DNA of 64,000 nucleotides. It comes from Chloranthus sessilifolius (Eukaryota; Streptophyta; Magnoliopsida; Chloranthales; Chloranthaceae). The stretch's first letter is position 1. Each line of letters begins with the position of its first letter. The stretch covers positions 47,381,811 to 47,445,810 of the forward strand of contig CM037584.1 of the NCBI GenBank assembly GCA_021018995.1, given 5' to 3'. Shown here piece after piece: positions 3,351-53,372 of the stretch. The notes below the pieces were generated by a model. It was not told where the DNA came from. It saw only the letters and a list, made by a program, of their open reading frames with translations, and searched no databases. A program made the position numbers and the translations under genes.

Positions 3351-3490
3351 ACATTCAATTTTTAAATTCAGTCTGAAAACCTTTTTTATTAAAAAATAAT
3401 CTTCTACCACCTGCTGGAATTCTGTATGAGTTTGGAGTACTCATCTTTGATACTCTATTGGAGTATGCTGCCTTTTCCACACATAAGTGT

Positions 3491-3552
3491 CTATATGTGT
3501 ATTTGTGTGTGTGTGTGTGAGAGAGAGAGAGAAGAGGAGAGAGAGAGAGTAC
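3491..3552. repeat. Compound TG/GA microsatellite at the last visible splice donor
   Basis: A (TG)n-(AG)n tract begins right after the donor of the last recognised flippase exon. On the gene strand the intron starts GTACTC followed by CT and then CA repeats. Failure to splice would add a short low-complexity tail and stop near 3441. Confidence 0.7.
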
Positions 3553-4091
3553 CAGTAGCCAGGTAATGTAGGGACTAAATCGATGACAATGACACATATG
3601 CATGTAGCAAGTATGGAGCCCCATATAGCTGCGTGCGTAATCCATGTCCACCGATATACGTCCATGGCTAAGTGGATGTTAACCAGTATTACCACTGCAA
3701 GAGTCCATAGATCTCCGATGCCTGATCCATCTACAGAAGTTTGTCTATACGCCAAGAAAGGGATATAGAAAATAACTGCACTTTGCCACACAGTATCCAT
3801 CATGGTCAGGCAAAATAGTTTCAGGTTGTAGCTTTCGCCTCTCTGCCCGGCTCCATATAGTTGAGGATACTTGAGCAGGGTCCTCCTACTCAAGTCCTTG
3901 TCCAGAATCCCAACAACGATTGTTGGCACGGCCGTATAGATCACAGAATACAGCACACTACTCCACTCAGTGATTGCAGTAGTCAAACTGAATGCAGTGT
4001 AAAGCACATACCTGAGACAAATTGCCGATAACTACTATTAGACGCAACATCAGAAATTCTATAGGACATAACATAAAAGTATAATAATTGG

Positions 4092-4130
<39 letters not shown>

Positions 4131-7100: not shown

Positions 7101-7736
7101 GCCATTTTGGAGCACAGACGCCGTCCGATTGTTCTCAATGCGGTCTGATCGGTGCCGCCGCCAATCCTCATAAGCATCCTTAACAGCTGATACGAGCAAT
7201 ACGAAAGCTAATGGAAGAATCGAAGCGGCTCTACCAAAAACTGCAAGCTGAGGGAGCTGGTTCAAGACGGCGATCACAAGGAAGTATATATAGGCGACAC
7301 GGTGGAATTGCTCGAACAAATTTCGGGGTAAAAACGTGAGGATCGAGTACTTGCTGGTACTGATCGAATTGCCTCTGAATTCGAATTTCTGGTTTGTTCT
7401 CTCAGGGTCATTTATATATACCAATCTCGCATCTTCGTCGCTTATCTCTTTAAGGGAGGCTCCAAATGTATCAGATTCAGCTCGCCGAGATCCGTGCCGC
7501 GTCGGAACCGAACCGGAGTGATCTAAGCTCTCAATGGAGAACAACCCCGGAGCCCTATCGACAGATTTTCGATCAGTGGTTTTCGATCGAGAAGACCTAC
7601 TCCTCTGAGAATACGAATTCAAGTCCATATTCGGAACAAAATTAGGGTTTCGAGATTCCGGAAGATTCAAAGTCGAAGGGTTTGTGGTATTGGGCGTTCG
7701 AGGGGAAGGGTCAAGCAGAGGCCGACCAGAGGCCAT
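3553..7736 (-). CDS. ALA1: P4-type phospholipid-transporting ATPase (flippase), ALA1-like, six exons, 3' end incomplete
   Basis: P4-ATPases flip phospholipids from the outer to the cytosolic leaflet of plasma or endosomal membranes, usually with a CDC50/ALIS partner. Exons on the minus strand, all with GT-AG borders and matching phases, are 7736-6143, 6032-5726, 5545-4837, 4747-4624, 4368-4149 and 4011-3553. They encode about 1137 residues without a stop. Visible landmarks are the N-terminal membrane pair ([12 protein letters not shown]), the P4 actuator motif DGES, the PISL motif of M4, the phosphorylation site DKTGT near residue 492 (D492), KGADSS and LTGDKQET in the nucleotide domain, GDGANDV, and the C-terminal membrane bundle. 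ALA1 of Arabidopsis is about 1158 residues, so roughly the last 50 are missing. The start ATG at 7736 gives a family-like variable N-terminus. Reading is clean, with no indels, which also argues that the assembly is accurate. ALA1 identity is from remembered family sequence. Confidence 0.93.
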
Positions 7737-9237: not shown

Positions 9238-9445
9238 AATTGATTGCTTTGAATCAGATGATATAAATCGTTTTTCATTCTAATCTTCTAAACAATAGAT
9301 CTTAAGATCATGGGTCTACTGTCATCAGATTTTGATTCCAAGTGACACATTTCAAAAGTGACTTGATGTGTGTGTCACGTGGAATCAACATCTCTCATGA
9401 TATCCTCGATATAAAGATCTATTGTGTGGAAGATTTCAATGCCCT
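9238..9445. mobile_element. Foldback MULE-type MITE
   Basis: The left arm (GATTGCTTTGAATCAGATGA, then ATAGATCTTAAGATCATGGG) and right arm (AAGATCTATTGTGTGGAAGA) are inverted copies with a short core. Confidence 0.65.
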
Positions 9446-15160: not shown

Positions 15161-15867
15161 GTCTCAATTGACCCGATCATAAGCTTTTTCCATATCGACT
15201 TTGAGTAAAACTCATTTTCTTTTGGCGGTGTGCATAGAGTGGATGCTTTCTTGAGCGATAACATCGATGTCCAAAATCTGATTTCCTTCGATAAACGCCC
15301 CTTGGTACTTGGAAATTACCGACCTAATAACTCTTTTTAGTCTATTGGCTAAAAGTTTGGCAATAAGCTTGTAGAGGCTAGTAACAAGGGATATTGATCT
15401 AAATTTTTTTAGCTTGATTGCTCCTCTTTCCTTAAGAATAAGGACAAGGAAAGTAGAGTTAATGGATTTATGGATAGAGCCATCTTCCCAAAATTTATCC
15501 ACCATCTTAATTATGTCAAATTTAATGGTTTGCCAAAATTTATGGAAGAATCCAAAAGTGTAGCCATCCGGTCTAAGAGCCCGATCTGCGGAACATCCCT
15601 TAATAGCGGAAACAATTTTATCTTCATGAAACCTTTCTTCAAGAGGGATAGCAGCAGTGGGTTCAAGGGTTTGTGGTTGGACATTATGAATTCTTGGTCT
15701 GCAATGATTTTCTTCACAAAATAATTTCGAATAAAAATCAATTGCAATATTCACAATATCATCAGTTTTGGAATAAGAAATATCGTCTTTGAAGATGGTT
15801 AAAATAGTGTTTAGAAGTTTTCGGTTGTTGGCATGCACATGGAAAAAAGGGTATTGTGGTCGCCGTC
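15161..15867 (-). pseudogene. LINE fragment: N-terminal half of the RT domain
   Basis: The minus-strand frame reads FFHVHANNRKLL, EERFHEDKIVSAIKGCSADRA, RPDGYTFGFFHKFWQ, FRSISLVTSLYKLIAKLLANRLK, YQGAFIEGNQILD and then VDMEKAYDRVN near 15200-15165. These are canonical plant L1 RT blocks. It is continuous with 35401-35920 on the far side of a 19.5-kb nested insertion. Confidence 0.88.
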
Positions 15868-16330
15868 TGTCATGACTCAGAATTCTACCCAATCTCGAGG
15901 GCCTAAAATTTCGTGTTATAACACCGGATGCTTGTTAAGGCAATAAGCAGACATGCATACTAACTCATAATTCATCATAGAAAATAAGATCGAGACATTT
16001 AAATAACAACTTATGATGAATGGCTCACAAGGAAAAGCGAACAGTGTAGACTGCAATTAATAAGGTAAAATTCTAACCATGCATCTAAGACATAAAATAA
16101 GCGAAAGTTTCACGTAAGGTAAAACCGTCCCATACGTAAGCCCATAAGATGTACGAAAATAAATCAATTGGAAATATGTCTCTTAAGAAAATAAAAAAAT
16201 CTAGAGCTAAAAGAATACTCAAAGCTCATAATAGTCTAACAGATCTACACCCTCATCCAATTGGTAGTCGATGTCTTCATCTTCATAAGCCGCTTTCAGT
16301 ACAGCTGCCTCCACGTCATCAAGTGGTAGC
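15868..16330 (+). mobile_element. Long LTR (solo LTR, copy 1), part 1 of 3
   Basis: It begins TGTCATGACTCAGAATTC and continues after the Athila-like insertion. The same sequence, inverted, ends at 43230. Flanks CCGTC (15863-15867) and CCCTC (35396-35400) are a 4/5 target duplication. Start and end are mutually complementary (TGTCATGACTC, GGGTCATAACA), as in Tekay/Del-type chromovirus LTRs; that assignment is inference. Confidence 0.7.
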
Positions 16331-17750
16331 TGATCGGTGCTGAAATATGACTATATTTCATACCTTAAACCCTACACTTAGCAGTTCGATGAAAGTATTT
16401 GATGGCAGTTGTGGAGTTTTGATGTTAACAGGTGTTCCTAAACCTTGGATCTTCCAAGTGCATAAAAGAAAGAAATTAGAGGTTACAAAAGAACTATGGA
16501 CAAAAAGGTTTAAAGAAGCACTGAAATCTGTGAAGGGAATCAAACTCCATCAAGGGAAAGAAAGATATTGAACCCCGCGAAGCGCATAAAATCTAACCCA
16601 GCGAGCACCTGAGTTCTTAAAGTACAATCAACCTCGCGACAAGGAAAGTCTCCTTATCCAGTCAACCACGCGAAGAGCAGAAAACCAACCTAGCGACTGT
16701 TGCTGCTGAGGGCATATTGGAGATTTCACCAAAAAGGGCATTTACTTCCAACTAGTGTCAATCGATTGAGACATGAATTTCAATCGATTGAGATAAAAAG
16801 GCAAAAGTGTCTTAAAGGAGGTTAAATTCAAAGTTCAATCGATTGAGATCTAAGCCTCAATCGATTGAGGCAATTATTCAAAGTTCAATCGATTGAGATC
16901 TAAGCCTCAATCGATTGAGGCAATTAGGGTTAGGTTGAATCGGCTATTATAAATAAGAGGCCCACAGCTTTGTAAGGGGGAGGGGTTTTTATTCTGAGAA
17001 AATTTGTGTAATAATTTGCCAAGAGAGACTTTTGTAGAGGGTTTTCTTAGAGTAATAAAATTGTGTTGAGATTTTCCGAGAACATATTTTATTTTACACC
17101 TTCTTTGCTCTTTAATTTGGGAATGGTTTTGAATGAAATTGAAGATCTTGCACCAAGGATGAGAGGCTAAAGGCTGTAGATCAAGGAGGATGCGATCCCC
17201 AGATAAGCACCCATATTTTATGTTTAATGCCATAGTTTGATAATTTCATCATCAAATCGTTTTTCTCAAAGTGTAGTGATCATGTTTTTATTGTTTTGAT
17301 CTAAAATACCATGAGATACGCTATGCTTTTCACATGATTCATACCGCGATTAGGCTGAGTCATTGTTTTTAGATAGGATATGCCGGGTTAATGATCATGC
17401 TTAATTACTAGTCATGTTTCTCTTAGAATGATGGTGTGTTTGATGTTAATAAAATTGTGGGTTTAAAAATAGAAAAGGGTATAAATCTAGGGTAGCAAAT
17501 TCCTTGATCTTGTTTTTAAAATTTGTTCTTAGATTTCTCATTACATAATTTTTAGATTAATTTATTTTCTTTCTTGCAATTAGAAAAGTGTTAATTTTGG
17601 TAAAATTAAATCGCTTACTTCCTGGGATATTTTCTAAATCTCTAGGAAGAATTGATTAAAATTTCAGATTTTCATGGGTTCGACACCCTTGTTCTTGCCT
17701 TACTAGAAACGGATCTTGTACACTTGCAAGGGTTTATTTAAAATCGATCA
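16331..17750 (+). repeat. 5' LTR of the Athila-like element
   Basis: It is 1420 bp. It contains three pairs of TCAATCGATTGA (16758/16780, 16835/16857, 16885/16907), the last two pairs being a 50-bp tandem duplication, then CTATTATAAATAAGAGG as a likely TATA box (about 16943). By eye it differs from the 3' LTR at only about eight positions over the first 1250 bp, then at a cluster in 17590-17715. Confidence 0.92.
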
Positions 17751-17785
17751 AGTTTTTTGGCGTTCTTGTGAAAATCGGCGAAATT
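17751..17785 (+). other. Probable primer-binding region of the Athila-like element
   Basis: Immediately after the LTR the sequence reads AGTTTTTTGGCGTTCTTG. Athila-type elements usually have a TTTGGCGCCGTTG-like primer site here, so this looks like a degraded version. The tRNA cannot be named with confidence. Confidence 0.4.
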
Positions 17786-17827
17786 TTGAGTAAATTCCGA
17801 TTAGAGATTTTTTTGTTTTTATAACAG

Positions 17828-18683
17828 TCAATCGATTGAGACTTGTTTCTCAATCGATTGAGGTTGTGTGTTTTTGGCAATAATTGTGCCTCAATCGATT
17901 GACTCAACTCTGTCAATCGATTGACAAAAAAAAAATTTCTTTCCCTAATTTTCTTTCTTAGATTAGATTTTGTGATATTCTTTAGGAAGTTTAGGTTTTT
18001 AGAAGTTCTTAGTTTAGAAGTTTTTTTTTTTTTTTTTTTTTTTTTATTATTATTTTCCACTTTTAGAAATTTTAGGATTTTCTAAAAATTGGTTATTCAT
18101 TTTTTTTTTAGGAAATTTATATTTTTAGGAAATTTATATTCTTAGTTTAGAAGTTTTCTTTTAGGAAAGATTTTCTAGGTTTTTAATTTCTAATTTCTAA
18201 TTTTCGAATTTAGATTTTATTTTTATTTTTCTGAATTTTAATTTTTTTAAAAAAAAAAAAAAAATAATAATAATAATAATAATAAATAAAAATAAAAATA
18301 AATTTCCTGAGTGGTTTTCTTTCCTTTTTCTTCTTACTTTGCTCTCTGTTCATAGCAGCATTCAATCGATTGAAGCTCCTTTCTCAATCGATTGATACTG
18401 AGCTACTTTCTGTGTGCTCTCTACTCTTTTCTCAATCGATTGACATTCCTATGTCAATCAATTGACAGAACTCTTGTATGTTTTAATCTTTGAACCTCAA
18501 TCGATTGAGAGAATCCTCTCAATCGATTGACTGACAAAGTCTTTTTCTGATATTCTGTGTGCTTTCTGACTCTTGGAACCTCAATCGATTGAGAGCATCC
18601 CCTCAATCGATTGCCTGACAAGTCATTTGTGTGAAATTTTATGTGCTTCATTAATCTATTGAGACCATGTCTCAATCGATTGA
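17828..18683 (+). repeat. Leader cluster of paired TCAATCGATTGA palindromes
   Basis: Seven pairs start at 17828/17850, 17891/17913, 18362/18384, 18432/18454, 18497/18519, 18581/18603 and 18651/18672. Six are spaced exactly 22 bp and the last, degenerate one 21. Between the second and third pair lie long T and A/AAT tracts (18018-18300). The cluster ends right where the gag frame begins. Confidence 0.9.
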
Positions 18684-18686
18684 GTC

Positions 18687-19770
18687 TTGAGGACTTATTT
18701 TGGGTTCTTCAAACCTTTGATTGTGGGTGTGGTGTATGAGCTTTACTCGTTCTCATCACCCACATTTGCTACCTGCTTAATCCAGGAGATCGAGCGATCT
18801 TTGCGAGACAATCGTAGAATCCAAAGGAATCGTATCATCCCTCGATACCATGGCGATCAAGAGCAAGAAATGAATGAAAACAACAACAATGGCAATAATG
18901 TAAATAATGGAAATAATGGGAACAATAATTACTATGAGGGACCTAGAACACTTGAATACTATAATGATCCCGATTTTACGAGGATCGAGTGTATCATGCA
19001 TGCTCCCATTCCAGAATCATTATGAACTCAAATCGGCGATGATACAAATGCTACCAATATTCCATGGTTTGTGGCGAAAATCCGCATACGTTCATCCGAA
19101 CGAGTTCACTGAGGGTATGCAAAATGTTCAGAGTCCACAATGTTGATGAGATAGCTCACTCTTTCCGTTCTCTTTAAGAGACAAGGCAAAAACTTGGTTC
19201 TATTCTTTAGAACCGCAATCTATTCGAGTTGGGCGAGCTACATCGTCGGTTCCTCAAAAAGTATTTTCCCATGACTAAAGCCATAGAGATGCGTCAAAGA
19301 TCCTTTTCTTTTCCCAACCTCTGAGACATTCCATGAATGTTGGGAACGTTTAAGGAGTTGATCGAAGTTGCCCTAACCATCACGTTCCAAGGTGGCAACA
19401 AGTCCAAAGTTTCTACAATGGATCGATTCTCAAGAAAGACGCATGGTTGATGCATCTTGCGGTGGATCTTGTGCCACGAAGGGCCGATGAGTTGTGGGCA
19501 TTGTTTGAGAAATTGTATCAAACCTCGATACAAAGTGAGACAACGAACCACTTTGGACTTAGCACCTAAATCTCATGTGTTGACCAAAGACGGATTGTAT
19601 GAGGTCAACAATAATAACTCGATCTATCAACCAAGGTTGATATGTCATTCAAACAGATGAACATGTTGTTAGTCGCAACCAAGCAAGCTAAAGTTCCTGT
19701 CACACCCCCATCAGTATGCTCAATTTGTGAACACCCAGTCATATGGCTAATGAGTGCCCAACTACCTTGA
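18687..19770 (+). pseudogene. Athila-like gag remnant
   Basis: Pieces in shifting frames match a Ty3 gag. After an asparagine-rich stretch come LKSAMIQMLPIFHGL, SLLRDKAKTWFYSLEP, CWERFKELIEVA and, near 19710-19765, a zinc-knuckle-like CSICEHP followed by MANECP in another frame. At least four frameshifts or stops break it (first stop at about 19023). No functional capsid can be made from this copy. Confidence 0.75.
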
Positions 19771-20299
19771 CATTCCTTCGATGAATCTACTCTTCCAGCG
19801 GATAAATGTCACTCAATCTTATCGCAAGGTAGAAACGTGTACTCAAATACCTACAACCCAGTGGAAAAATCACCCCAACTTAGGATGGGGTGGATCAAAC
19901 CAAACCGTCAGTCAACCAATCAATACCGAGCCAATCCTATGAGTGGACAACAAGCGGTTCCACAAAATTTTCAAAGAAAATTTCCGTCCACAACATTTTC
20001 GGTAGAATTCTAATTTTCACCGAATTCTAACTTTCGAGAATGCTCCATATTCTCATCCAAATTCGATTTCCTAAAATCGAATTTCAATCGAAATCTAATC
20101 AACCTCATACAAGCACTTCAAAGGATTACGATCCGGAAGAAAAGGTGATGCAGATGCAATCTTTTCAACGGATGATAATCGACCAAAGTCGACCAATTGG
20201 CAAATCAACCGAGTCGACAAGAGGAGGGTAAGCTTCCCACCAACCCAACAATCCTCGCGACCAAGCATCATCGATGAAGGACCATTAAATAGTCAGCAG

Positions 20300-20660
20300 T
20301 TGAAAGTCATCGTGTTGAGAAGTGGACGGCTTATAATCAAGTGGAAATGCACTGTGGAAGCAGAGGACGAAAGTGAAGCGGACAAAGAGCGAGGCAGAGA
20401 AAGAGAAAGAGTCACGAGAAGAGCGGAGAAAGAGAAAAGAAAAGAGGAAGAGAAAAGAAGAGAGAAGGGAAAAGAAAAGGTGATAGAGGATGAGTCTCCC
20501 CCAACTGTCCAACAAGGACAAGACGAAGAATCAGAAGGGGAACCCGCACCTTGTGTCCCAAAGGCACCATTTCCTCAATGCCTAACTCCTCCATCAAGAA
20601 TGGGAAAGGGACCAACAAAATGGAAGATATTTTCAAACATTTAAGCAAGTAAAGATAAAC
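20300..20660 (+). pseudogene. gag-protease linker remnant, charged (E/K/R-rich)
   Basis: The frame 20300-20644 encodes LRSGR followed by a highly charged stretch rich in E, K and R, then proline-rich KAPFPQCLTPPSR. Athila gag-pol has a similar LRSGR motif and acidic/basic linker ahead of the protease. A stop at 20642 breaks the link to the protease. Confidence 0.6.
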
Positions 20661-20666
20661 CTTCCA

Positions 20667-21237
20667 TTGCTTGAAACGATCAAGCAAGTGCCCGAGTATG
20701 CAAAGTTTTTCAAAGATTTATGCACTAAGAGAAAGGCACGTAATCATGTTTCGAGGAAAGTGTTCTTGACTAATCAAGTCGTTCCATATTGCAATTGGAA
20801 ACCCCACAAAACTAAAAGACCTCGAGTTCCTCTTTGTTCCATGTGTCATTGGTGGGCAACCATTGGGAAAGAGTTATTGGATTTGGGAGCCGGTGTTAAT
20901 TTAATCCCATATTCATTGTACGAGAAACTCGAATTTGGGTGAATTGAGGCCCTAGCGGTCCTGCAAGCTGGCGATAGATCGGAAAAGGCACCGAGGCGTT
21001 ATTGAGGATGTCTTGGTTGGAATAGATAAGTTTGTCTTTCCGATGGATTTTGTTGTTTTGGACATGGACACACCTAAGTCACTTAATCAAGTCCCCATCA
21101 TCCTTGGACGTCCGCTTCTCGCTATTGCCAACGCTTGCATTAATTGTCGAGCAGGAGTCATGGACGCTTTCTTTTGGAAACATGAAGGTTCGATTGAATA
21201 TCTTCCATGCGATGAACCATTTCCCAAACGAGGATGA
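20667..21237 (+). pseudogene. Retroviral-type aspartic protease remnant
   Basis: The frame encodes IKQVPEYAKFFKDLCTKRK, then LLDLGAGVNLIPYSLYEKL, and in another frame VGIDKFVFPMDFVVLDMD and IILGRPLLAIANACINCRAGV. DLGA at 20880-20891 is the catalytic aspartate box. A stop near 20940 and a frameshift before 21013 break the domain. Confidence 0.8.
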
Positions 21238-21489
21238 GGTCGAATGTTTTTACATCGATCGAGATAGATGAAGTGGTGGATGAGGCGGACCTTCAATGCT
21301 TACCAAAGAGGAATTTGAAATGCTTTGTTGGCCATCTATGAAGAGAAAGGATCTAAGAGAAGCGATCAAGCGAGATAGAGTCTAGCTCATCATGCCGGGA
21401 TGATCACTTAGATGCGAGTGTGCACGAGATAGAATCATTACACGTTGAGGTGAAGGAAGTCGCCTCCATCACTTGAGCAGCCACCAATT

Positions 21490-22576
21490 GTGGAATTGAA
21501 ACAATTGCCAGAGTCCCTTAAATATGCTTTTCTGGGACCTCGTGAAACACTTCCAGTAATAATCTCATCCACGTTGTCGGCAGAACAAGAAAAAGAATTG
21601 TTGAAGGTGCTGAAAGAGCACAAGGAAGCTATCGGTTGGACTTTCACTGATCTCAAAGGGATTGACCCATCGGTATGTATGCATAAAATACATTTGGAAG
21701 ATGAGTAAACCTTCAAGGGAACCACAGAGGCGACTTAATCCAAACATGCAAGAAGTCGTTCTAAAAGAAGTCATTAAACTCCTTGATGCTGGAATCATCT
21801 ATCCGATTTCTGATAGTGAATGGGTTAGTCCACCCAAATTGTTCCGAAAAAGTCCTAATCATCGTGAAGGAAATCAAGGAGAATTGGTCCCCACTGAGAA
21901 ACTCGGATGGCGTGTCTGCATTGACTATCGGAAATTAAACACCGCCACCAGAAAGGATCATTTTCCCCTTCCGTTCATTGATCAAATCCTTGAGAAGTTA
22001 GCTGGGCAAGAGTTTTACTGTTTTCTTGATGGGTATTCGGGATACAATCAGGTGCTGCTACTACCGATCAAAAGACAACGTTCACATGCCCTTATGGTAC
22101 GTTTGCATACCGCAGGATGCCATTCGGCCTATGTAATGCCCCGGCCACATTTCAACGGTGTATGTTAGCCATATTTTCATATATGATCGACAAATTCATT
22201 GAAGTATTCATGGAGCGACTTCTCGTTTTTGGGAGAACCTTTGATTCTTGTTTGAATCATCTTTCACAAGTGTCGCAACGTTGTGTTGACTCCAAACTTG
22301 TTCTTAGTCGAGAAGAGCCATTTATGGTTAAACAAGGGATTGTTGGGGCACATTGTTTCACGTAAAGGAATCGAGGTGGATAGAGCAAAAGTTGATCTAA
22401 TTGCTAACTTGCCACCACCCAACAAGTTCGTTCACAAATTCGATCATTTACGGGTCATGCGAGATTTTATAGAAGGTTCATTAAGGATTTCAAAGAAGGT
22501 GGCTAAACCATTGTGCACCTTGCTTGGCAAAGATGTTCCTTTTGAATTTACTAAGGAAGCATGCAAGCATTTTTGA
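21490..22576 (+). pseudogene. Ty3/gypsy reverse transcriptase remnant
   Basis: Blocks in order are LPESLKYAFLGPRETLPVII, HKEAIGWTFTDLKGIDPSVC, SREPQRRLNPNMQEVV, WRVCIDYRKLNTATRKDHFP, LPFIDQILEKLAGQEFYCFL, DGYSGYNQV, MPFGLCNAPATFQRC and IEVFMERLLVFG. The FMDD-type catalytic box is replaced by FMER (22207-22218 region). Stops and frameshifts occur near 21706, 22120 and 22300. These blocks are strongly Athila-like. Confidence 0.88.
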
Positions 22577-23085
22577 AATTATGAGCTCTTATCCAATGCA
22601 CCAATCATCCAGCCACCGAATTATTCTCTCCCATTCGAACTCATGTGTGATGCCTCTGATTACGCAATTGGAGCTGTCCTACGGCAGAGGGTGAATAAAT
22701 TACCTCACGTTATTTATTATGATAGCATGTCATTAATTGGTGCCTCAATTACACCACCGAGAAAGAATTATTAGTCGTGGTGTATGCTCTCGACAAGTTT
22801 CGCTCCTATTTGCTTGGATCAAAATAGTGGTCTTTTCGCACTATTCCGCTCAAATATCTTCTAGCAAAGCAGGATACTAGACCGAGATAAATCCTTTGCA
22901 TCCTTCTGCTCCAAGAATTCAATTTCGAGATTAAGGATAAGAAGGGGGTTGAGAACGTGGTGGCTGATCATTTGTCGAGAATTCTACCTAACGAATCTGC
23001 AATACCTGAGACCATCCGTGACACGTTTTCGGATGAACATTTGATAGCAATTGATGTAGCTTGTGCAAAGGTTCCATGGTTTTAA
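22577..23085 (+). pseudogene. RNase H remnant of the Athila-like pol
   Basis: Reading across frames gives LPFELMCDASDYAIGAVLRQR, PHVIYYDSMSL, LLVVVYALDKFRSYLLGS and IRDKKGVENVVADHLSRILP, which are the RNase H and connection blocks of Ty3 pol. At least three frame changes occur. Confidence 0.75.
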
Positions 23086-23187
23086 CATTGTGAATTATCC
23101 GTTATCGCGTAATCCCCACCGAAAGTGGGGTAAGAATGATAAGAATCTCTTTTTCTCCCAAATAAAATACTATTTTTGGGATGAACC

Positions 23188-24300
23188 ATGTCCTGCTCAA
23201 ATTCGCTCGGATCGATCATCGAGATGTGTACCGAAGAGGAGCAAATGAGCGTCCTACACTTGTGTCATCTTTGGGCTGTATGCGGCCACTTCGGAGGACA
23301 GAAGACCGCCCAGAAAATCCTTCAAAGCGGATTCTACTGGCCCTCCATCTTTCGTGACGCTGCACAATTTTGCAAGGAATGCCGACGATGTCAACAGCTT
23401 GGCAATATTTCCAAACGGAATATGATGCCCTTAATCCAATTCGATTGTTGAAATTTTTATGTTTGGGGATTGACTTTATGGGTCCTTTTCCCCATCCTTT
23501 GGGTTTTCATATATTCTAGTGGTCATGATTATGTCTCAAATGGATAGAAGCTGTGGCAACCCGATCGAATGATCATAAGGTTGTGGTCAAATTCCTCAGA
23601 GAAAATGTGTTTAACCGATTCGGATCCCAAGAGCAATCATCAGCGATGGCCATTCGCATTTTGTAATAACCATTTTGCCACCTTAATGAAGAAGCACGTC
23701 ACTCACAAAGTTGTTAATACCAGTACCATCCACGAACTAGCGTCGGTGGAAGTGTCTAATCGGAAATTGCGAATTCTAGAAAAAAAATTCAACGGATAGA
23801 AAAGATTGGTCAAACCGGCTCTCGAGGCTCAGGCCTATCGGACCGCATTCAAGACTCCGATTGGAATGTCTCCGCTTTGAATTGTTTACGGAAAGCTTGC
23901 CATCTTCTGTCGAATTGGAGCATAAAGCACTCGGCGATAAAAGATTTAATTGACATGCAAGCAAAGTGTCGATCGCCGATTGCAATTGAATGAATTGGAG
24001 GAATTACGCTCTACGGCGTATGAGAATTAGATGTACAAGGAAAGGTACAAAAAGTCGCATGATGCGTCCATTTCTAAAAGAATTTCACGTTGGCCAAAAG
24101 TTTGGTTATTCAATTCCATCAAGCTCCACCCGGGAAAATTAAAATCTCGATGGGAAGGCCCATTTCAGGTAGTGTCCATGAGTGCGCATGGTGCCATTGA
24201 AATTCGGAGCCTTGCTGACAATCGCATTTGTAAAGTTAATGGGTAAAGACTCAAACCAATGTTTGAGCCGATCACCCAGTTTAAGATTGAGGCGATGCAC
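23188..24300 (+). pseudogene. Integrase remnant of the Athila-like pol
   Basis: The H2C2 zinc module is visible in 23188-23451 (GHFGGQKTAQKILQSGFYWP, FCKECRRCQQLGNISKRN). Fragments of the core follow: DFMGPFP, WIEAVATR-like, HKVVVKFL and VEVSNRKLRILEKK. The C-terminal part is GKLKSRWEGPFQVVSMSAHG and RLKPMF (24130-24260). Multiple frameshifts break it. Confidence 0.85.
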
Positions 24301-24482
24301 CTCCGTGATCCACGAGGATTGATCCAAAGGTCATTTTCGACATGTAAACTCGGCCTTCACAGGAGGCACCCATTTGTTTTATTTATTTTTTCTATGTGTG
24401 TCTTTCCATGTTTGTTGTTCTTTTTAGTTTAGTTTTATTTTTCGAGAAACAAAAAAAAAAAAAAAAAAAAGAGAGTCCACAG

Positions 24483-24895
24483 TCAATCGATTGACTGTGA
24501 TTCCTCAATCGATTGAGCTTCATCATCATTTTTCAGTCTTTTGTCTCAATCGATTGAGAAATTGGCCTCAATCGATTGACATTTTAAGAGTTTGTGCATT
24601 TGTGTTGGAATTTGGACAGCCACCCGACAACTCTTGTCATGGCAGCTGACTTCTTGGGTTGGGCATTGACTCCCATTACACTTGGTTTTCCTTGGCCCTT
24701 TAATGCCTTACGTTTCCAAGGACACCAACCGGCGCTATTTTATTCTCACAACTATTCCTCAATCGATTGACACCTTAGTGTCAATCGATTGACCTTCAAT
24801 AGTGGAGTAATGGCAAGAGCCACGTCTCCCAGGCAGTGCCAAGTTGCCGCTTCCACCTCGCGACGTGGGAAGTCCATGCATCCTCAATCGATTGA
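24483..24895 (+). repeat. Palindrome-pair cluster between pol and accessory ORF1
   Basis: Pairs of TCAATCGATTGA start at 24483/24505, 24546/24568 and 24759/24781, each spaced 22 bp, plus a single site at 24884. The cluster stops about 100 bp before the ATG at 24997. Confidence 0.9.
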
Positions 24896-24996
24896 GGCTC
24901 ACTCTATATATGTGGTACTCCCCACCCGTGGAGTCCTCATTCGAAATCCAGCCAACTTGTCACGCCGATATCTTTGCTCCTCCTTGTTTTGATCAA

Positions 24997-25995
24997 ATGG
25001 CTGCCCTTATCCGACCACCGCGCCCAGCCAATGATCCGATGCGCATCCCTAATGAGCATTATATCGATCGCCAATTCCAAACGGAAAATTTCTTCGACTT
25101 GGTGAAATACCGGAACATCGCGGAATACGCACGGTCGATCGAATTCATCGAGGCCCTCCGCTTGGAAATGCTGCTGACCCCACCACCCATCGATGTAGCC
25201 CCGCGCATCATTCGGCTATTCTATCAAAAGATGGTGTCGGAGCCCGAGACCCTCTCCCCAACCGGCTTGCCGTTCATCACCATCGAGATCGATAACTGGC
25301 AATATAACCTCCATGCCGCTGATCTCGCCCGTGCTTTTAATTTCTACGAGGCTCGTCCCGTGAACCACCACCTTCCTCCGGCTATCGAGCGTAGCCAAGA
25401 TGATATGATCAACGATATGTGTGGTGGTCGTCGTGGGACCGGTCAGGCCACAAAGCGCGCTGTGTTGCCCATGGATATCCTCTTTTGGGATATCGTTATG
25501 GCCAATAACCTTCTGCCACATGGCACAAAGTCCGAGAGGACTTTGGGTCGGGTGAAGGCGCTCTACGCGGCACACACCAATACTTGGTTTGATGCGCCTG
25601 GGTTGATGCTCGCGGAGATGTACCGCTGCCATAGTGATATCGCCGGCGCCGCCGTACCCGCCAAGCGTGCTGCGATTCTCCTACACTTCCCACACTATGT
25701 GATGCACATTCTGGATCACCTTGGCTGCCCCATCTATGACGATGAGGTGATGGGTGACATGCAATTTTATCAATATGGTGTGAATGTTTGGGTCAAGAGT
25801 ATCAAGGCGATCATCCGCGCGCAATCGGCCCCGGTTGAGGATGCACCTCCACCTGCCCGTCCAAACCCCGCACAGCGCCAACGTGGCGGTGTTAGGCGAC
25901 CTCGTCCTGAAGAGGTCCCCGATTTTGATCTTGTCGGTAATGCTCGCCTCGAGGCGCGAATGGACGGGCTGAATGCACGGCTCGGTGGTGGATAG
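24997..25995 (+). CDS. Accessory ORF1 of the Athila-like element (putative plant transposon protein type)
   Basis: An intact 332-codon frame lies in the position of the extra 3' ORF of Athila elements. I start it at MAALIRPPRPAND (24997) because the upstream in-frame part overlaps the palindrome cluster; the frame is open back to 24844. It resembles the family annotated as putative plant transposon protein: an N-terminal FDLVKYRNIAEYARSIEFIE block, a central IVMANNLLPHGTKSERTLGRVKALY block and a following LAEMYR...AAILLHFPHYVMHIL block. The C-terminus is proline/arginine-rich (PPPARPNPAQRQRGGVRRPR). No signal peptide or clear transmembrane segment is seen, so an env function is not supported. 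It is GC-richer than its surroundings and free of stops, unlike gag-pol. Function unknown. Confidence 0.75.
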   Translation: MAALIRPPRPANDPMRIPNEHYIDRQFQTENFFDLVKYRNIAEYARSIEFIEALRLEMLLTPPPIDVAPRIIRLFYQKMVSEPETLSPTGLPFITIEIDNWQYNLHAADLARAFNFYEARPVNHHLPPAIERSQDDMINDMCGGRRGTGQATKRAVLPMDILFWDIVMANNLLPHGTKSERTLGRVKALYAAHTNTWFDAPGLMLAEMYRCHSDIAGAAVPAKRAAILLHFPHYVMHILDHLGCPIYDDEVMGDMQFYQYGVNVWVKSIKAIIRAQSAPVEDAPPPARPNPAQRQRGGVRRPRPEEVPDFDLVGNARLEARMDGLNARLGGG

Positions 25996-26277
25996 GCGGT
26001 CCCGATTTCAAACCGCTCTCCTTATGCGGATGGTTTCATGAAGTCATTCCCGGTCGTCGACCATTTCATCGACGCGAGCGCAATGAACGAGAGCGTGAAC
26101 CAATATGAGGATGATGATGATGTCTACTGATTGTCTTGTTTTGTTTTGTTTTGGAGTTTTTCTGTTTTGTGTTTATTTTGTTTTTTGTTTGATATGTCGG
26201 ATCAGTGTATGCATGCAAGCATCAATGATAACATTTTCTTTGTTTTGGCATATTTGTGGTTGGTTTCGAGCTCTCAG

Positions 26278-26611
26278 TCAATCGATTGAGATCTCTCTCT
26301 CAATCGATTGAGCTCCCTCATGCTCCCCTATATTTTCCTCAGTCAATCGATTGAGAATTCTGTCTCAATCGATTGACTGATGCACCTAAATTTGGAAAGT
26401 CCTGATTTTGACCTTTATTTTTACTATGGTATATCAATCGAATGACATTTAGGTGCCAATCGATTGAAACTTGCTTGGTCAACCAGTCACCCCTGCTGGA
26501 ATAGGAAAGTTTCTCCAAATATTTGATTTGGAGAACGGATTTAATTTGCCACCACCCCATATCTTTGCCCTCTCCTGTCAATCGATTGACACCAACATGT
26601 CAATCGATTGA
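26278..26611 (+). repeat. Palindrome-pair cluster between accessory ORF1 and ORF2
   Basis: Pairs start at 26278/26300, 26343/26365, 26434/26456 and 26578/26600, all spaced 22 bp. The second extends to a 16-bp inverted repeat (CAGTCAATCGATTGAG and its complement) with a 7-8 nt loop. Confidence 0.9.
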
Positions 26612-26757
26612 TCATTTTTCTAAAATTCTTCATGCAACATCGTCCGAAATTTCTTTCTTTAGAGTGTCCTTCTTTTAGGAACTTTTCAGCTATTTAGGGC
26701 ACTTGCTGGGTCCTCCTCTTAGTCCCAATTTTCAGTATCCGTCCCCACCTTGTCGCC

Positions 26758-27045
26758 ATGTCTTCCTTCCGTCCTCGTACTCGAGCCGCAGTCCAACAGT
26801 TAATGGAGCCCGCACGCAAACGTGCCCGATACAACGCTCCACCGCCACCATTCGATTGGTCCACCCATGCCATCCTCCACCTTGATGAAGAATCTGTTTC
26901 ATCACCCGTACTCACCACCCCTACCCCACCCTTATCACCACCTCGGGCACCAATCCCACCCGTCGGCGCGGTTGGAATTTCTGAAGAAATGTGGCGCTAC
27001 GCTTTTCCGAAGCCGCGGGGCGGAATTTCTACCATGGAGGACTAG
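26758..27045 (+). CDS. Accessory ORF2 of the Athila-like element, small proline-rich protein
   Basis: A 95-codon frame starts MSSFRPRTRAAVQQLMEPAR. It has a basic patch PARKRARY that could act as a nuclear-localisation signal, a proline-rich middle (TPTPPLSPPRAPIPPV) and ends GGISTMED. It follows a palindrome cluster just as ORF1 does and is GC-rich like ORF1. I do not recognise a family. It could be a small accessory protein or the displaced 3' exon of ORF1. The intact frame and matching composition favour a real reading frame, but the short length leaves doubt. Confidence 0.5.
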   Translation: MSSFRPRTRAAVQQLMEPARKRARYNAPPPPFDWSTHAILHLDEESVSSPVLTTPTPPLSPPRAPIPPVGAVGISEEMWRYAFPKPRGGISTMED

Positions 27046-29276
27046 AGGATTTGTTTTCGGTTTTTAGGATCTAATTTTACATGTCTTTAGGGTAGGGTTG
27101 TTTTTTTTATGTTTTCGTTGTTTCGGTTCGGTTTGTTTTTTATTTTCGTTTTGGTTACGTTTGTTTAGTTTTGCGTCACGTTAAATTTTGCTTTAGTTTG
27201 TAATAATTTTCTTTTTAATAAAAATTTAGTTTCGTATTTGTGTTTTTCTCTCTTTCACTTGCTCGGTTGTTTTGTCCTTTGATTGCATAGAACGGGTTTG
27301 GGGGAGGCCTTCTTCCCTTTCTCCGCATCTTCACCAATGAGGACATTGGCCAGTTCAGGTTTGGGGGGGTAATTGGTTGTTTTCTGAAAAAAAATAAATA
27401 AATAAATAAAAAATAACTTTTTAGCAGTTCTCGGATTTTTGAATGCGTATCAGTCAATCGATTGAGACTACTGTCTCACTCGATCAACTGATAAACATAA
27501 AAGGGTATAAGAATTTGTGGCTCAGTCAATCGATTGAGTCCAATCTGTCAATCGATTGAGAATTTGGTCTCAATCAATTGACTGATGGTTGGCAAATGCT
27601 ATAATTTAATTGATTATTCATATTTTTGAGCATGAAGATTCTTCCTGAATTTCTTTAAACAAAGCTATCATACCATGGTTATTTTATGAGTGCCCATAAG
27701 GTGTAGATATTGAACATTAATGATCATGAATCATGCTTAAAAATAATTGTTTTCATCACTCGCTTTCAATCTCAAAATCGGAGGATTAAGTGTGTAACAT
27801 GGAATCTTAAAGATCACAAAGAAAGACTAAAACCTTGAAAGTTTTTGAAACACTTGTCCTCATTCTTGATGAGTGCTGAAATAAATTCGGAGTATTCTTG
27901 AAATTCTTGTTCCAATTGTTAAATCTCATTCCGGTTACTTTGATTTGTGATTTTATGTGTGTTATAACATTACACTAGAAATCATTGTGTACTAACTCAA
28001 GGCAAATAGGCGTATTTTACCATCATGAAAGGAAATGATCTAAGGCCATCATTGGTTCGTCTGTGCTTAAAATGTCCCACCTCATAAATTTATCCTTCTA
28101 GTACACCTTTGAGCTTATTGGAAAATTTACCTTTATACATTCTTTGTTAAGCTGCAATAACCTTTAACCCCTTACCGCTTCTGAAAATTCAGCTTGCCCT
28201 TACTTATTTCTGAGAAATTAGGAACAAGGGATGAAAATGAGTGAAAAGAGAGTAAGTGGGGATTATATGTGTTGTAGTGTGTACTGAAAAAAAAAAAGGG
28301 AAAAAGGAAATTGTAAAAACAATGAACAATATGAGGTGCTTCACGAAAAAAAAAATATATATATATATATTGAGAAGAATGGTGAGAGACTAGAAAAGAA
28401 AAAGAATAGAAATACAAAATCAGAAATTGTTTCTTTTCCAATTTCTCAGAAATTTTTGAATCCATCTTTTCCTTTCTTTTCTTAACCTTAACCCGAGCCC
28501 CATTACAACCTTAGAAAAGACCTTTTTGATCCAATCATGAGTGATGAAATGCCTTGTGGAGAGTAAGTACATAATTGTCTATGGTGCTTGATATATGCAT
28601 GCTTAAAATACAGATATCTTTCTTAATGAGATTTCCCTTATAATTCTTTGATACACCGTCTTTCTTTAAAACTTGTGAGATTTTCTTCTAATTGTGTTGC
28701 AATTCCATCTCACACATGAAAAAAAAAAAAAAAAAAACTGCAATTCCATCTCACCATGAAAAAAAATTTTGTATACCCATGGGCACCACGTTCCCAGTGG
28801 GGAGTGATTTCATTCTGAGTGTATACCCATGGTGAGGATTGGAGTCTAGACATGTGATCTAAAAGTTCCAGTTTAAGCTTTTCCTCTGATATAAGAACTT
28901 TGGGCAGTGATGATCTCATGACATTGAGGCATGAAATATGAACATTAGAAGACAATGGTCTGAACTGAATGTGGCATAAATGGAATGAACATGGTTAGAT
29001 GTATTCTAAAAAGATTTTTCAGGGGCATCTAATTGCTAAAGGACATGATTAATCAATTCTGAAATTCCGATAGCCTTGAAGTTTGTAGGTACCTTCACTG
29101 AAAACCTTCAGGAGACACAACTCCTCCACTAGGGATCACCTAGGGGTTTAAAGGCTTGTTGCACGTGCTAAGTGCAATCGTGTTCCCTACGAAAGTGGCA
29201 TTTAAATTTTAGGATGTCAGTTTTATTTTACTTTATATATTTATCATTCTCTTTGCTCGAGGACTAGCAAAGTGTA
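27046..29276 (+). other. 3' non-coding region of the Athila-like element
   Basis: AT-rich DNA with T-rich tracts, a TA run (28356-28369) and A tracts (28708-28737). Two G-rich tracts, GGTTTGGGGGAGG (27294) and GGTTTGGGGGGG (27358), resemble extra polypurine tracts. A palindrome group occurs at 27454-27581. No open frame is convincing. Confidence 0.7.
27454..27581 (+). repeat. Palindrome group after accessory ORF2
   Basis: Sites start at 27454/27476 (the second degenerate) and at 27526/27548/27570, a triplet with two consecutive 22-bp steps. Confidence 0.85.
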
Positions 29277-29288
29277 AGTTTGGGGGTG
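29277..29288 (+). other. Polypurine tract of the Athila-like element
   Basis: AGTTTGGGGGTG directly precedes the 3' LTR. This is the usual form of the plus-strand primer in Athila-type elements. Confidence 0.8.
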
Positions 29289-30721
29289 TGATCGGTGCTG
29301 AAATATGACTATATTTCATACCTTAAACCCTACACTTAGCAGTTCGATGAAAGTATTTGATGGCAGTTGTGAAGTTTTGATGTTAACAGGTGTTCCTAAA
29401 CCTTGGATCTTCCAAGTGCATAAAAGAAAGAAATTAGAGGTTACAAAAGAACTATGGACAAAAAGGTTTAAAGAAGCACTGAAATCTGTGAAGGGAATCA
29501 AACTCCATCAAGGGAAAGAAAGATATTGAACCCCGCGAAGCGCATAAAATCTAACCCAGCGAGCACCTGAGTTCTTAAAGTACAATCAACCTCGCGACAA
29601 GGAAAGTCTCCTTATCCAGTCAACCACGCGAAGAGCAGAAAACCAACCTAGCGACTGTTGCTGCTGAGGGCATATTGGAGATTTCACCAAAAAAGGCATT
29701 TACTTCCAACTAGTGTCAATCGATTGAGACATGAATTTCAATCGATTGAGACAAAAAGGCAAAAGTGTCTTAAAGGAGGTTAAATTCAAAGTTCAATCGA
29801 TTGAGATCTAAGCCTCAATCGATTGAGGCAATTATTCAAAGTTCAATCGATTGAGATCTAAGCCTCAATCGATTGAGGCAATTAGGGTTAGGTTGAATCG
29901 GCTATTATAAATAAGAGGCCCACAGCTTTGTAAGGGGGAGGGGTTTTTATTCTGAGAAAATTTGTGTAATAATTTGTCAAGAGAGACTTTTGTAGAGGGT
30001 TTTCTTAGAGTAATAAAATTGTGTTGAGATTTTCCGAGAACATATTTTATTTTACACCTTCTTTGCTCTTTAATTTGGGAATGGTTTTGAATGAAATTGA
30101 AGATCTTGCACCAAGGATGAGAGGCTAAAGGCTGTAGATCAAGGAGGATGCGATCCCCAGATAAGTACCCATATTTTATGTTTAATGCCATAGTTTGATA
30201 ATTTCATCATCAAATCGTTTTTCTCAAAGTGTAGTGATCATGTTTTTATTGTTTTGATCTAAAATACCATGAGATACGCTATGCTTTTCACATGATTCAT
30301 ACCGGGATTAAATTTGAGTCATTGTTTTTAGATAGGGTATGCCGGGTTAATGATCATGCTTAATTACTAGTCATGTTTCTCTTAGAATGATGGTGTGTTT
30401 GATGTTAATAAAATTGTGGGTTTAAAAATAGAAAAGGGTATAAATCTGGGGTAGCAAATTCCTTGATCTTGTTTTTAAAATTTGTTCTTAGATTTCTCAT
30501 TACATAATTTTTAGATTAATTTATTTTCTTTCTTGCAATTAGAAAAGTGTTAATTTTTGGTAAAAATTAAATCTGCCCCTTGGTACTTCCTCGGGGATAT
30601 TTTCTAAATCTCTAGGAAGAATTGATTAAAATTTCAGATTTCCCTGTGAGTTCGACACCCTTGTTCTTGCCTTACTAGAACAGATCTTGTACACTTGCAA
30701 GGGTTTATTTAAAATCGATCA
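29289..30721 (+). repeat. 3' LTR of the Athila-like element
   Basis: It is 1433 bp with the same termini as the 5' LTR. Palindrome pairs are at 29716/29738, 29793/29815 and 29843/29865. It is slightly longer than the 5' LTR owing to differences at about 30555-30685. Confidence 0.92.
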
Positions 30722-33192: not shown

Positions 33193-33513
33193 GGTTTTTT
33201 TGCAAATAACCCCCTGAGTTATGTTGATATTACAAATAGCCCCCTCAGTTATAGCTATTTGCTTTAAACCCCCTGAGTTAGCATTTTGGTGTTTATAAAA
33301 CATCATCTTTAACGGATGCTACTTTAAATGGTTAACTAGCCGTTAAAGAATAGCCTAAATGCCATATTTATCCTTTTTTAAATTAAATTACTAAATTGCC
33401 ACCCCACCCTCTACACGTGGTAAGAGTAATTTTAAATCCACTCCTCCACTTACAAAAAAGAATAGTTTTAAATCCACCTACCAAATATTTGAGTTCACCC
33501 ACGCTGAAAAACA

Positions 33514-34045
33514 TTGACTGCATTGAATCGGACGATGGAGATCGTTTATCGTCCCAACCTTTCACACGATGGATCTTGAGATCACGGTGGCACTATTAGA
33601 CAGTTGACTGTAGTGAATCGAATGATGGAGATCATTTATTGTCCCAACCTTTCACACGATGTATCTTGAGATCATGGTGGCACCATCAGATAGTTGACTG
33701 CATTGAATTGGACGATGGAGGTCGTTTATCGTCTCAACCATTCACACGATGGATCTTGAGATCATGGTGGCACCATCAGACGGTTGATTGCATTGAATTG
33801 GACAATGGAGATTGTTTATCGTCCCAACCTTTCACACAATAGATCTTGAGATCATGGTGGCACCATCAAATGATTGATTTTTTATTTCATGTGGTACACA
33901 CCCAAAAAAATGACCTTAAAATTAATTTTAACCGTATACGTGATGTTAAGGTCACTTTTCTAAGATGTGTGCCACAAAATAAAATATTGATCGTCTAATG
34001 GTATGCCTAAACGATCTCCATCCTCTTATTCAATGCAATCAATGT
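33514..34045. mobile_element. Foldback MULE-type MITE with a left arm tandemly repeated four times
   Basis: The left-arm unit, starting TTGACTGCATTGAATCG, is repeated at 33514, 33604, 33694 and 33784, exactly 90 bp each time. The core and a single right arm follow, ending in the GATCTCCATCCTCTTATTC region. The 90-bp period keeps frame and creates a 30-residue repeat in a 67-codon open frame that is not a gene. Confidence 0.88.
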
Positions 34046-34324: not shown

Positions 34325-34751
34325 GAGTACCTTTAAATCCACCCACTGAATCTTGAAGTTCACCCACTGAATCTTGAAGTTCACCCACGCTGAAACACGT
34401 TGATTGAATTGAATCGAACGATGGAGATCATTTATCCTCCCAATCTTTCACATGATGGATCTTGAGATTATGATCGTACCATCATACGGTCAGTGTTTTA
34501 TTTCACGTGGCACACATCTCAGAAAAGTGACCTTAACATCTCGTGTATGCTTAAAATTGATATTAAGGTCACTTTTAGGGGTGTGTACCACATGAAATAA
34601 AAAGTTGACAGTCTACTGGTACACCCATGATCTAAAGATCGATCTCATGAATGATTGGGACGATAAAAAATCTCCATCGTTTGATTCAATGCAGTCGATG
34701 TGTTTCCGCGTGGGTGAACTCAAAGATTTCGTGGGTGGATTTAAAGGTACT
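34325..34751. mobile_element. Foldback MULE-type MITE, reference copy with target duplication
   Basis: A perfect 10-bp duplication CCTTTTAGAA flanks it (34315-34324, 34752-34761). Ends are GAGTACCTTTAAATCCACCC and GGTGGATTTAAAGGTACT. The inverted arms extend inward past TTCACCCACGCTG and the GATGGAGATCATTTATC block, well over 100 bp. The 9-10 bp duplication and long inverted ends indicate the Mutator superfamily. Confidence 0.88.
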
Positions 34752-36647: not shown

Positions 36648-37008
36648 TGTTGATTGCCTCGAATTAGACGATGAAGATCGTTTTTAGTCTCAATCTTCCA
36701 CACAATAGGTTTTGAGATTGTACACCACCTATCAAACAATCAAATGTTGATTCACAACGTAAACTTCACCGAAAGTGACTAGATCATTGCCGTACCATGA
36801 CAAGGATTCTCGAGTCACTTTTGAGGATGAGTGCTGTGTCGAATCGACATTTAATCGCCTGCTAAGTTGGCCATGATCTAAACATCTATTGTGTGAAAGA
36901 TCGACATCTATTCGCCTGCCTAGCAGGCCATGATCTTGATCTAAACATCTATTGTGTGAAAGATTGGGATAAAAAATGATTTCTGATTGAAGACAGTCAA
37001 CAACTCTC
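36648..37008. mobile_element. Foldback MULE-type MITE
   Basis: The left arm (GATTGCCTCGAATTAGACGATGAAGATCG) and right arm (GTGTGAAAGATTGGGAT, then CTGATTGAAGACAGTCAAC) are inverted. The right part contains a duplicated block (GATCGACATCTATTCGCCTGC, about 36850 and 36900). Confidence 0.65.
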
Positions 37009-52289: not shown

Positions 52290-52600
52290 TGCATTAATTG
52301 CTTTGAATTAGAGCATGAAATGCTTTTATTGTCCCAGCTTTTTACAAGATGGGTCTTCAGATCATAGGCATACACTCAGATAGTTACTTTTTTATTTAGC
52401 GTGGTACAAATCCCAAACAGCAACTCTATACTCGTGAGACATACATCAAGCTCAAATACAAATCACGGGTCATTTTTTGGAATAGGTGCCACATGAAATA
52501 AAAAATTATCTAATGATATACTCATGATCTTAAGATGCATCATGTAAAAGATTGGGATAAAAAACAACCTCCTTTGTCAGATTCGAAGTAGTCAATGCAT
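52290..52600. mobile_element. Foldback MULE-type MITE
   Basis: Left arm ATTGCTTTGAATTAGAGCATG and ACAAGATGGGTCTTCAGATC pair with right arm GATCTTAAGATGCATCATGT and GTCAGATTCGAAGTAGTCAAT. Confidence 0.65.
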
Positions 52601-52923: not shown

Positions 52924-53372
52924 AGTACCTCTGAACGCGTCCATGTGTTCTTTGAAAGCGCCCACGTCCCAGACCCGTTGAAGAATATTGATTGCTTTGA
53001 ATCAAATGAGGTTGATTATTTTTCACCCCAATCGTCCACAAAATGGATTTTAAGATCATGTAGCACCTATCGGATGGTCAGCTTGTGATTCCATGTATCC
53101 CCAGTCCCCAAAAAATGGCCCTAAAGTTACATTTGAGCATGATGTGTGTTATATGATTGAAGAGTCATTTTTTGGGTATCGGTGATATAGGAAATAAAAA
53201 ATTGACCATCAGATTGATGCACTATGAACCCAAGATCGATTTTGTGAAAGATCTTTGTTAAAAAAGATCCCCATCATCTGATCCGAAGAAATCAATATTT
53301 TTTCAAGGGTCTAGGACGTAAGCGCTTTCAGAGAACGCGTGGGCGTGAACAAAAAGGTATTGACATGTGTGC
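52924..53372. mobile_element. Foldback MULE-type MITE with long outer inverted ends
   Basis: The left end GTACCTCTGAACGCGTCCATG continues into the family arm. The right end reads CAAGGGTCTAGGACGTAAGCG and GAGAACGCGTGGGCG. A partial relative follows at 53373-53490. Confidence 0.65.

Follow-up and report, generated by a model that had tools for sequence, protein, structure and literature searches.

The 64-kb window of the Chloranthus sessilifolius genome (2.17 Gb in 32 contigs) that was analyzed here (C1:47381811-47445810) contains a long terminal repeat (LTR) retrotransposon at 16331-30721. The non-coding parts of this element carry many copies of the 12-bp palindrome TCAATCGATTGA, nearly all in groups whose members start 22 bp apart, and exact pairs of the same spacing are found at thousands of places in the genome. 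The element, the only one in the window with such groups of exact sites, is bounded by a 5′ LTR of 1,420 bp (16331-17750) and a 3′ LTR of 1,433 bp (29289-30721), which have TG..CA ends, are flanked on both sides by the 5-bp target-site duplication GTAGC, and align with 24 mismatches (1.7%). The LTRs, the two sequence signals below and the coding regions of the element are all on the plus strand. The putative core promoter of the 5′ LTR, identified by sequence match, is TATAAATA at 16948-16955 (LTR position 618), and the purine-rich stretch AAGTTTGGGGGTG (29276-29288), directly 5′ of the 3′ LTR, is by its position and likeness the likely polypurine tract.

The gag-pol region (18770-24261) is broken, with no stop-to-stop frame longer than 184 aa on its coding strand, and contains a trace of RVT_1 below the cut-off (21614-22167), an RNase H-like piece (RT_RNaseH_2, 22577-22771) and an integrase zinc-binding piece (Integrase_H2C2, 23185-23450). 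Reverse transcriptase and RNase H thus lie upstream of the integrase, which is the Ty3/gypsy order. Downstream, open reading frame (ORF) 1 is an open 394-aa stop-to-stop frame (24811-25995) whose first in-frame ATG, counted by eye, is at 24910, and ORF2 (26755-27045, about 96 aa) has no Pfam match and contains the basic stretch RKRAR. ORF1 weakly matches Transposase_32 (PF20167; E 6e-4, 20.1 bits, under the 45-bit curated cut-off), a family for which an ORF of another element, L016, scores 44.3 of 45 bits. The single-sequence structure model of ORF1 was uninformative (predicted local distance difference test score, pLDDT, 37) and was not used. At E 1e-3, no relatives of ORF1 were found in the protein collection or in viral contigs, no relatives of two pol pieces were found in viral contigs, and the Rfam and tRNA scans gave no matches. 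By its LTR ends, the order of its pol domains and the open ORF1, the element fits an Athila-like Ty3/gypsy retrotransposon, in agreement with the reading made earlier from the letters alone (the sequence-only reading). It was also observed that gag-pol is broken throughout (within the 18770-25995 region) and ORF1 is open, yet the LTRs differ by only 1.7%; the element may have been mobilized by borrowed proteins.

With up to two mismatches, TCAATCGATTGA matches 57 times on both strands of the window, compared with a mean of 6.4 and a maximum of 14 in 100 shuffles. Non-overlapping sites at this threshold number 45 inside the element, 39 of them exact, and no exact site lies elsewhere in the window. 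Together with one partner site that has three mismatches (27476), the total is 46 sites, in which only 10 of 552 positions deviate; 45 of these sites form 22 groups, one of which is a triplet, and the site at 24884 is single. Nineteen of the 22 groups lie outside the 3′ LTR. Among the 45 sites found with up to two mismatches, 21 of the 44 consecutive distances are exactly 22 bp and one is 21 bp, whereas none of 5,000 random placements in the same non-coding segments repeated any one distance more than five times, or 22 bp more than four times. The arrangement described by the sequence-only reading, about 46 palindromes in 22 groups with one 21-bp pair and one triplet, is therefore real and was never matched by chance placement. 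Its statement that the coding parts are free of sites also holds, since none of the 45 sites lies in gag-pol, ORF1 or ORF2 as delimited by eye, and the 33 internal sites are all in non-coding DNA, which makes up 41% of the internal region. Although the single site at 24884 falls within the stop-to-stop frame of ORF1, it precedes the first in-frame ATG.

The sites are gathered into clusters. Three pairs in U3 (16758/16780, 16835/16857 and 16885/16907; cluster 16758-16918, LTR positions 428-588) end 30 bp upstream of TATAAATA, and the second and third of them sit within a 50-bp perfect tandem duplication; their copies in the 3′ LTR are at 29716-29876. Seven pairs occupy the leader before gag (17828-18683), which holds an 84-bp duplication with 80% identity, and the pair at 18651/18672 is degenerate, with a 21-bp step. 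Three pairs and the single site 24884 precede ORF1 (24483-24895), and four pairs separate ORF1 from ORF2 (26278-26611). The cluster after ORF2 (27454-27581) consists of the pair 27454/27476, whose second site is the one with three mismatches, and the triplet with two 22-bp steps, so that the earlier placement of sites after ORF2 is valid for 27454-27585 only; the remainder, 27600-29288, holds none. In the triplet (27526-27581), the spacers GTCCAATCTG and GAATTTGGTC are partly complementary, and the entire triplet folds as a long inverted repeat.

The spacing is held constant while the sequence of the spacer is free, as had been claimed. In a comparison of 18 pairs, which excluded the 3′ LTR copies, one duplicate and the 21-bp pair, identity between pairs was 0.94-0.99 in the sites and 0.28 in the six central spacer bases, compared with 0.26 for random sequence. 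The central CpG is retained in 43 of the 46 sites; outside the sites, the observed/expected ratio of CpG is lowest in the leader (0.35), intermediate in the other non-coding parts (0.50-0.67) and highest in gag-pol (0.88). Outside the element, pairs with a 22-bp step are found at 53458/53480 (four mismatches in all) and 119/141 (six), both in other repeated DNA; at this limit of six mismatches the step of 22 occurs twice and that of 34 three times, so that the rest of the window has no clear peak at 22.

A close sibling of the element (L022 and L023) keeps the pairs, and the proposal that other copies be compared thus turned out in favor of the pairs. Against this sibling, the sites have 8 mismatches in 552 positions (1.4%), compared with 4.4% in the spacers, 5.7% within 30 bp of the sites, 5.0% in other non-coding DNA and 4.4% in coding DNA (sites versus other non-coding DNA, Fisher p 3e-5). 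In four of these eight mismatches, the consensus base is the one in the sibling. Sites and spacers are free of deletions, which affect 4.7% of positions in the remaining non-coding DNA, and all 22-bp spacings are kept; the pair that is 21 bp apart in the window has one more spacer base in the sibling. One LTR pair of the sibling is additional to those of the window, and at one place five of its sites follow each other in 22-bp steps, compared with two sites in the window. In more diverged Athila copies, most sites lie outside alignable DNA and the commonest step is still 22, which indicates that the positions of the sites turn over and the geometry stays.

Genome-wide, exact TCAATCGATTGA pairs with a 10-base spacer number 18,872, compared with 921 in all for spacers of 0-9 and 2,894 in all for spacers of 11-30, so that spacer 10 accounts for 83% of exact pairs over spacers 0-30; a control motif, TCAATCGATTGA read backwards, gave no pairs in any of the three spacer classes. 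The genome distance scan suggested by the sequence-only reading therefore yields a sharp peak at 22 bp. The same count limits the claim that the pairs are confined to one element, which stands in the window and fails in the genome, where the examined pairs belong to several families. The 14 clusters listed first along C1 (17 stretches), assigned by reading of alignments, all lie in LTR elements: eight are Athila-like or probably so (L010, L011, L013, L016, L017/18, L019/20, L021 and L022/23; L016 is only probable because it has short LTR matches alone), three are Ty1/copia (L007, L014 and L015), and three are probable solo LTRs of about 2.5 kb (L008, L009 and L012, family F2). Two further copia copies were chosen from the genome search (L024 and L026). 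Counting both LTRs of an element and sites with up to one mismatch, the commonest step is 22 in the Athila family (62 times; next 5), in the copia family (18; next 8) and in F2 (14; next 4).

The copia copy L024 has 817-bp LTRs with 96% identity and three pairs in each, all spaced by 22 bp. It is flanked by TAGTT, and its 5′ LTR is followed by TGGTATCAGAGC, which we take to be the usual copia primer site. Five of six scanned pieces match copia gag, Pol_BBD, GAG-pre-integrase, integrase or SH3_retrovirus, and one has no match. At E <0.001, the matches between its LTR and that of the window are limited to stretches of 34-91 bp that carry pairs, with 70-88% identity. The likeness of the F2 elements to the window element is similarly limited to 42-114-bp stretches with pairs; all of them end in CA, they start with TG (L012) or TA (L008 and L009), and, judged by eye, L008 and L012 have clear 5-bp flanking repeats, whereas those of L009 are imperfect. 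The same paired word is thus common to at least three unrelated kinds of LTR element among the examined clusters. A pair can also grow into a phased array, since consecutive 22-bp steps join five sites at L022:5450-5549 and four at L014:4606-4683. The F2 LTRs additionally hold variants with other centers, TCAATGGATTGA and TCAATAGATTGA (L008:4638-4800; L009:4198-4757), as if the specificity were shifting.

Clusters of palindromes in plant LTRs have been on record since 2010, and the earlier statement that no element of this kind had been described is too strong. Sireviruses have a palindromic repeated motif (RM), of which an element carries 8-32 copies, for the most part in the upper LTR half ahead of the TATA box and, in env-bearing Sireviruses, also ahead of the env-like gene (Bousios et al., 2010, PMC2829016). 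The LTR of the tobacco Ty1/copia element Tnd-1 contains ACAATCGATTGT eight times (PMC2829016), and this motif and that of the window have the 10-bp core CAATCGATTG in common. The likeness extends to the copy number (46 sites in the window, with at least eight expected of an RM), the symmetry, the position before an env-like gene, and the cluster in the upper LTR just upstream of the TATA-like match (428-588, with TATAAATA at 618). Sireviruses, however, are Ty1/copia elements, whereas the element of the window is Ty3/gypsy by gene order and domains. RMs other than that of Tnd-1 have a CGG-CCG core, and several form CpG islands (PMC2829016); this core is absent from TCAATCGATTGA, with Tnd-1 as the published exception, and the region in the window is AT-rich. 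Furthermore, the window has sites before gag and between accessory ORFs, one motif is common to three families, and the available part of PMC2829016 does not mention a fixed spacing. The strict spacing, the sharing between superfamilies and the internal positions are new relative to the Sirevirus precedent. The 12-mer TCAATCGATTGA was found only in two papers that, by title and start of abstract, are on unrelated subjects, and PMC2829016 is the sole retrotransposon paper among the matches listed for the core CAATCGATTG (18 of 20). In the accessible parts of the open-licence literature, neither fixed 22-bp pairing nor one motif common to Ty3/gypsy and Ty1/copia elements of one genome was found.

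VANDALs belong to the Mutator-like DNA transposons. Their VANC motif resembles the palindrome in being short, dense and mainly in non-coding parts (in the window, none of the 45 sites is in a coding interval); it differs in forming single-orientation arrays, for which the text available mentions no fixed pairing, and in having an element-encoded binder (PMC5735166). Retand elements are likewise plant Ty3/gypsy non-chromovirus elements with repeats, TRP28 ORFs and accessory ORFs beyond pol, but their repeats form tandem arrays, specific to each family and located between pol and the 3′ LTR, in contrast to the paired palindromes in the LTR and leader (PMC11963269). A palindrome of maize Copia elements is also the most frequent motif in structured regions of Helitrons (PMC10760457). 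Del LTRs have CpG islands, and the string 'palindrom' does not occur in the available text of PMC4029996.

We consider that the pairs are probably DNA-level regulatory modules of LTR retrotransposons, in which they would provide sites for a DNA-binding dimer that is most likely encoded by the host. Each 12-bp dyad would be bound by a sequence-specific protein dimer, and because the dyads lie 22 bp, or about two helical turns, apart, two dimers could bind together on the same face of the DNA. This was one option of the sequence-only reading, and it is supported, with moderate confidence, by the apparent selection on sequence and spacing, the free spacers, the position in U3 near the TATA-like match and the occurrence in unrelated families. 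The sites, the spacing peak, the conservation against one sibling, the sharing across families and the positions were observed directly, and from them we infer that a protein binds, that it is a dimer and that it is the host's. The factor is most likely host-encoded, and would be exploited by several LTR families, because unrelated Ty3/gypsy, Ty1/copia and unassigned LTRs carry the same site with the same spacing. The copies before gag, ORF1 and ORF2 may act as internal enhancers or as spreaders of an open chromatin state. As a lead only, the half-site GATTGA resembles the sites of plant WOX homeodomain proteins: the reported site of OsWOX13 is ATTGATTG, and its top 9-mers include ATTGATTGA and GATTGACAG (PMC7819943).

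Several observations weigh against a host dimer acting at these pairs. The conservation test involves a single sibling, the sites were picked by motif match in the window, and those of the LTRs were counted twice; the 18,872 pairs are copies, not independent events. The place next to a TATA box is not general, since the sole TATA-like match in the L024 LTR (1912) is about 450 bp beyond its sites, which are therefore not known as promoter-adjacent, and Tnd-1 is without a conserved TATA box (PMC2829016). The OsWOX13 site ATTGATTG agrees with TCAATCGATTGA over the half-site only, and no identity is claimed. Finally, the spacers of F2 and copia are alike (TTGGATG and TTGGGATG), and an exchange of cassettes between families, instead of convergence on one factor, is possible.

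Such cassettes could be selfish or recombinogenic, having no regulatory function and passing from LTR to LTR through template switching or tandem duplication. The 50-bp perfect duplication in U3, the 84-bp, 80% identical duplication in the leader, repeated units of about 75 bp in F2, the similar spacers of F2 and copia, and a likeness of flanks that in some pairs is above column chance (both flanks, p 0.002) are all consistent with this explanation. On average, however, spacer cores and flanks are at or near random identity, the sites are more conserved than the background, and diverged Athila copies retain the step of 22 while positions turn over; we regard spread without function as very unlikely. 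A binder encoded by the elements themselves is another, rather unlikely, explanation: ORF1 or another Athila accessory product would be a nuclear protein that binds the pairs and counters silencing, as VANC does on VANDAL, and other LTR families would parasitize it. The 9-base motif bound by VANC21 occurs as dense arrays, mostly in the non-coding parts of VANDAL21, and these arrays are associated with tandem repeats (PMC5735166); a sunflower Athila ORF partly like Transposase_32 is predicted to carry a nuclear signal (PMC11728184). ORF1 of the window element is open, unlike its broken gag-pol, and arrays of the palindrome grow in 22-bp steps. Pfam, however, offers only the weak Transposase_32 match for ORF1, and its structure model (pLDDT 37) is uninformative; the pieces of L024 match gag-pol domains (five of six) or nothing (one of six). 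Moreover, a tobacco Ty1/copia element has the core CAATCGATTG, and a host factor is for this reason likelier than an element product.

The unit could instead act as RNA, site 1 pairing with site 2 in a 12-18-bp hairpin that would serve packaging, dimerization, translation or the host small-RNA machinery. Ten of the 22 groups were folded, and for each of the ten none of 200 shuffles folded as well; nevertheless, any two copies of a palindrome fold into a hairpin, and one of the folded stretches (24477-24527) gives two single hairpins instead. The inner flanks covary: 14 of 18 window pairs are complementary (shuffle mean 8.8, p ~0.01), as are 24 of 49 in the pooled non-redundant set that includes the window (14.0 expected, p 0.002) and 19 of 40 Athila pairs including the window (13.1 expected, p 0.02). 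In the 26 Athila pairs from other copies, however, the count is 9 against 7.6 (p 0.32, not significant), and in other families it is 5 of 9 against 2.8 (p 0.07). Because the Athila set without the window is not significant, the covariation is largely carried by the window and is not established as general. The arms are identical in sequence in all units and not merely complementary, and the odd sites inspected have changed arms without a matching change in the partner, save one possible G-U; the compensatory changes that the sequence-only reading had suggested looking for are thus absent apart from this case. RNA readings are weaker because arm changes are uncompensated and flank covariation is not significant in other Athila copies, and RNA folding as the main reason for the pairs, one of the earlier suggestions, is unlikely, although the pooled set exceeds chance. 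In maize, small RNAs accumulate at the palindrome clusters of Sirevirus LTRs (PMC10760457, citing Bousios 2016), which counts for an RNA role; for the same reason, sites that serve as DNA may still give rise to small RNAs as a side effect.

For the palindromes of plant LTRs, the parts of the literature available name no binder. With such strict geometry, thousands of copies and sharing between superfamilies, the factor could be named from a single screen for binding to a 34-bp probe. If this factor activates or protects, it would show unrelated elements converging on one host protein; if it represses, plants would have a retrotransposon repressor with sequence specificity. Tentatively, and with some doubt, one trans-acting factor, probably the host's, might have been recruited by at least three unrelated LTR families through the same rigid double dyad, which would then constitute a shared code at about 19,000 places deciding which elements escape silencing.

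Insertion of the units with a 1-bp target duplication was considered and rejected (13 of 18 in the window, p 0.0002; 21 of 49 in the pooled set against 16.5 expected, p 0.08; 5 of 26 in other Athila copies). Exact pairs are absent from the viral contigs, and those with spacer 10 occur twice in prokaryote contigs, both from Acidobacteria (a metagenome-assembled genome and Geothrix rubra; L001:3649-3682 and L002:5233-5266). Both pairs lie between divergent frames that by eye resemble two TetR-type regulators, of which they may be the operator; the match is probably an unrelated convergence, and an example of the same double-dyad geometry. Elsewhere in the window, twelve diverged copies of an 86-nt repeat are located at 126-211, 9239-9324, 33513-33868, 34399-34484, 36649-36734, 44578-44663, 52293-52378, 52987-53072 and 54429-54514, four of them as a 90-bp tandem array inside a larger inverted repeat. 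Pieces of a gene for a phospholipid-translocating P-type ATPase, probably a host gene, lie on the minus strand at 3441-7736, remains of a reverse transcriptase that by eye is of non-LTR-like type on the minus strand at 15212-15934, and remains of a Ty1/copia element on the plus strand at 59847-61978.

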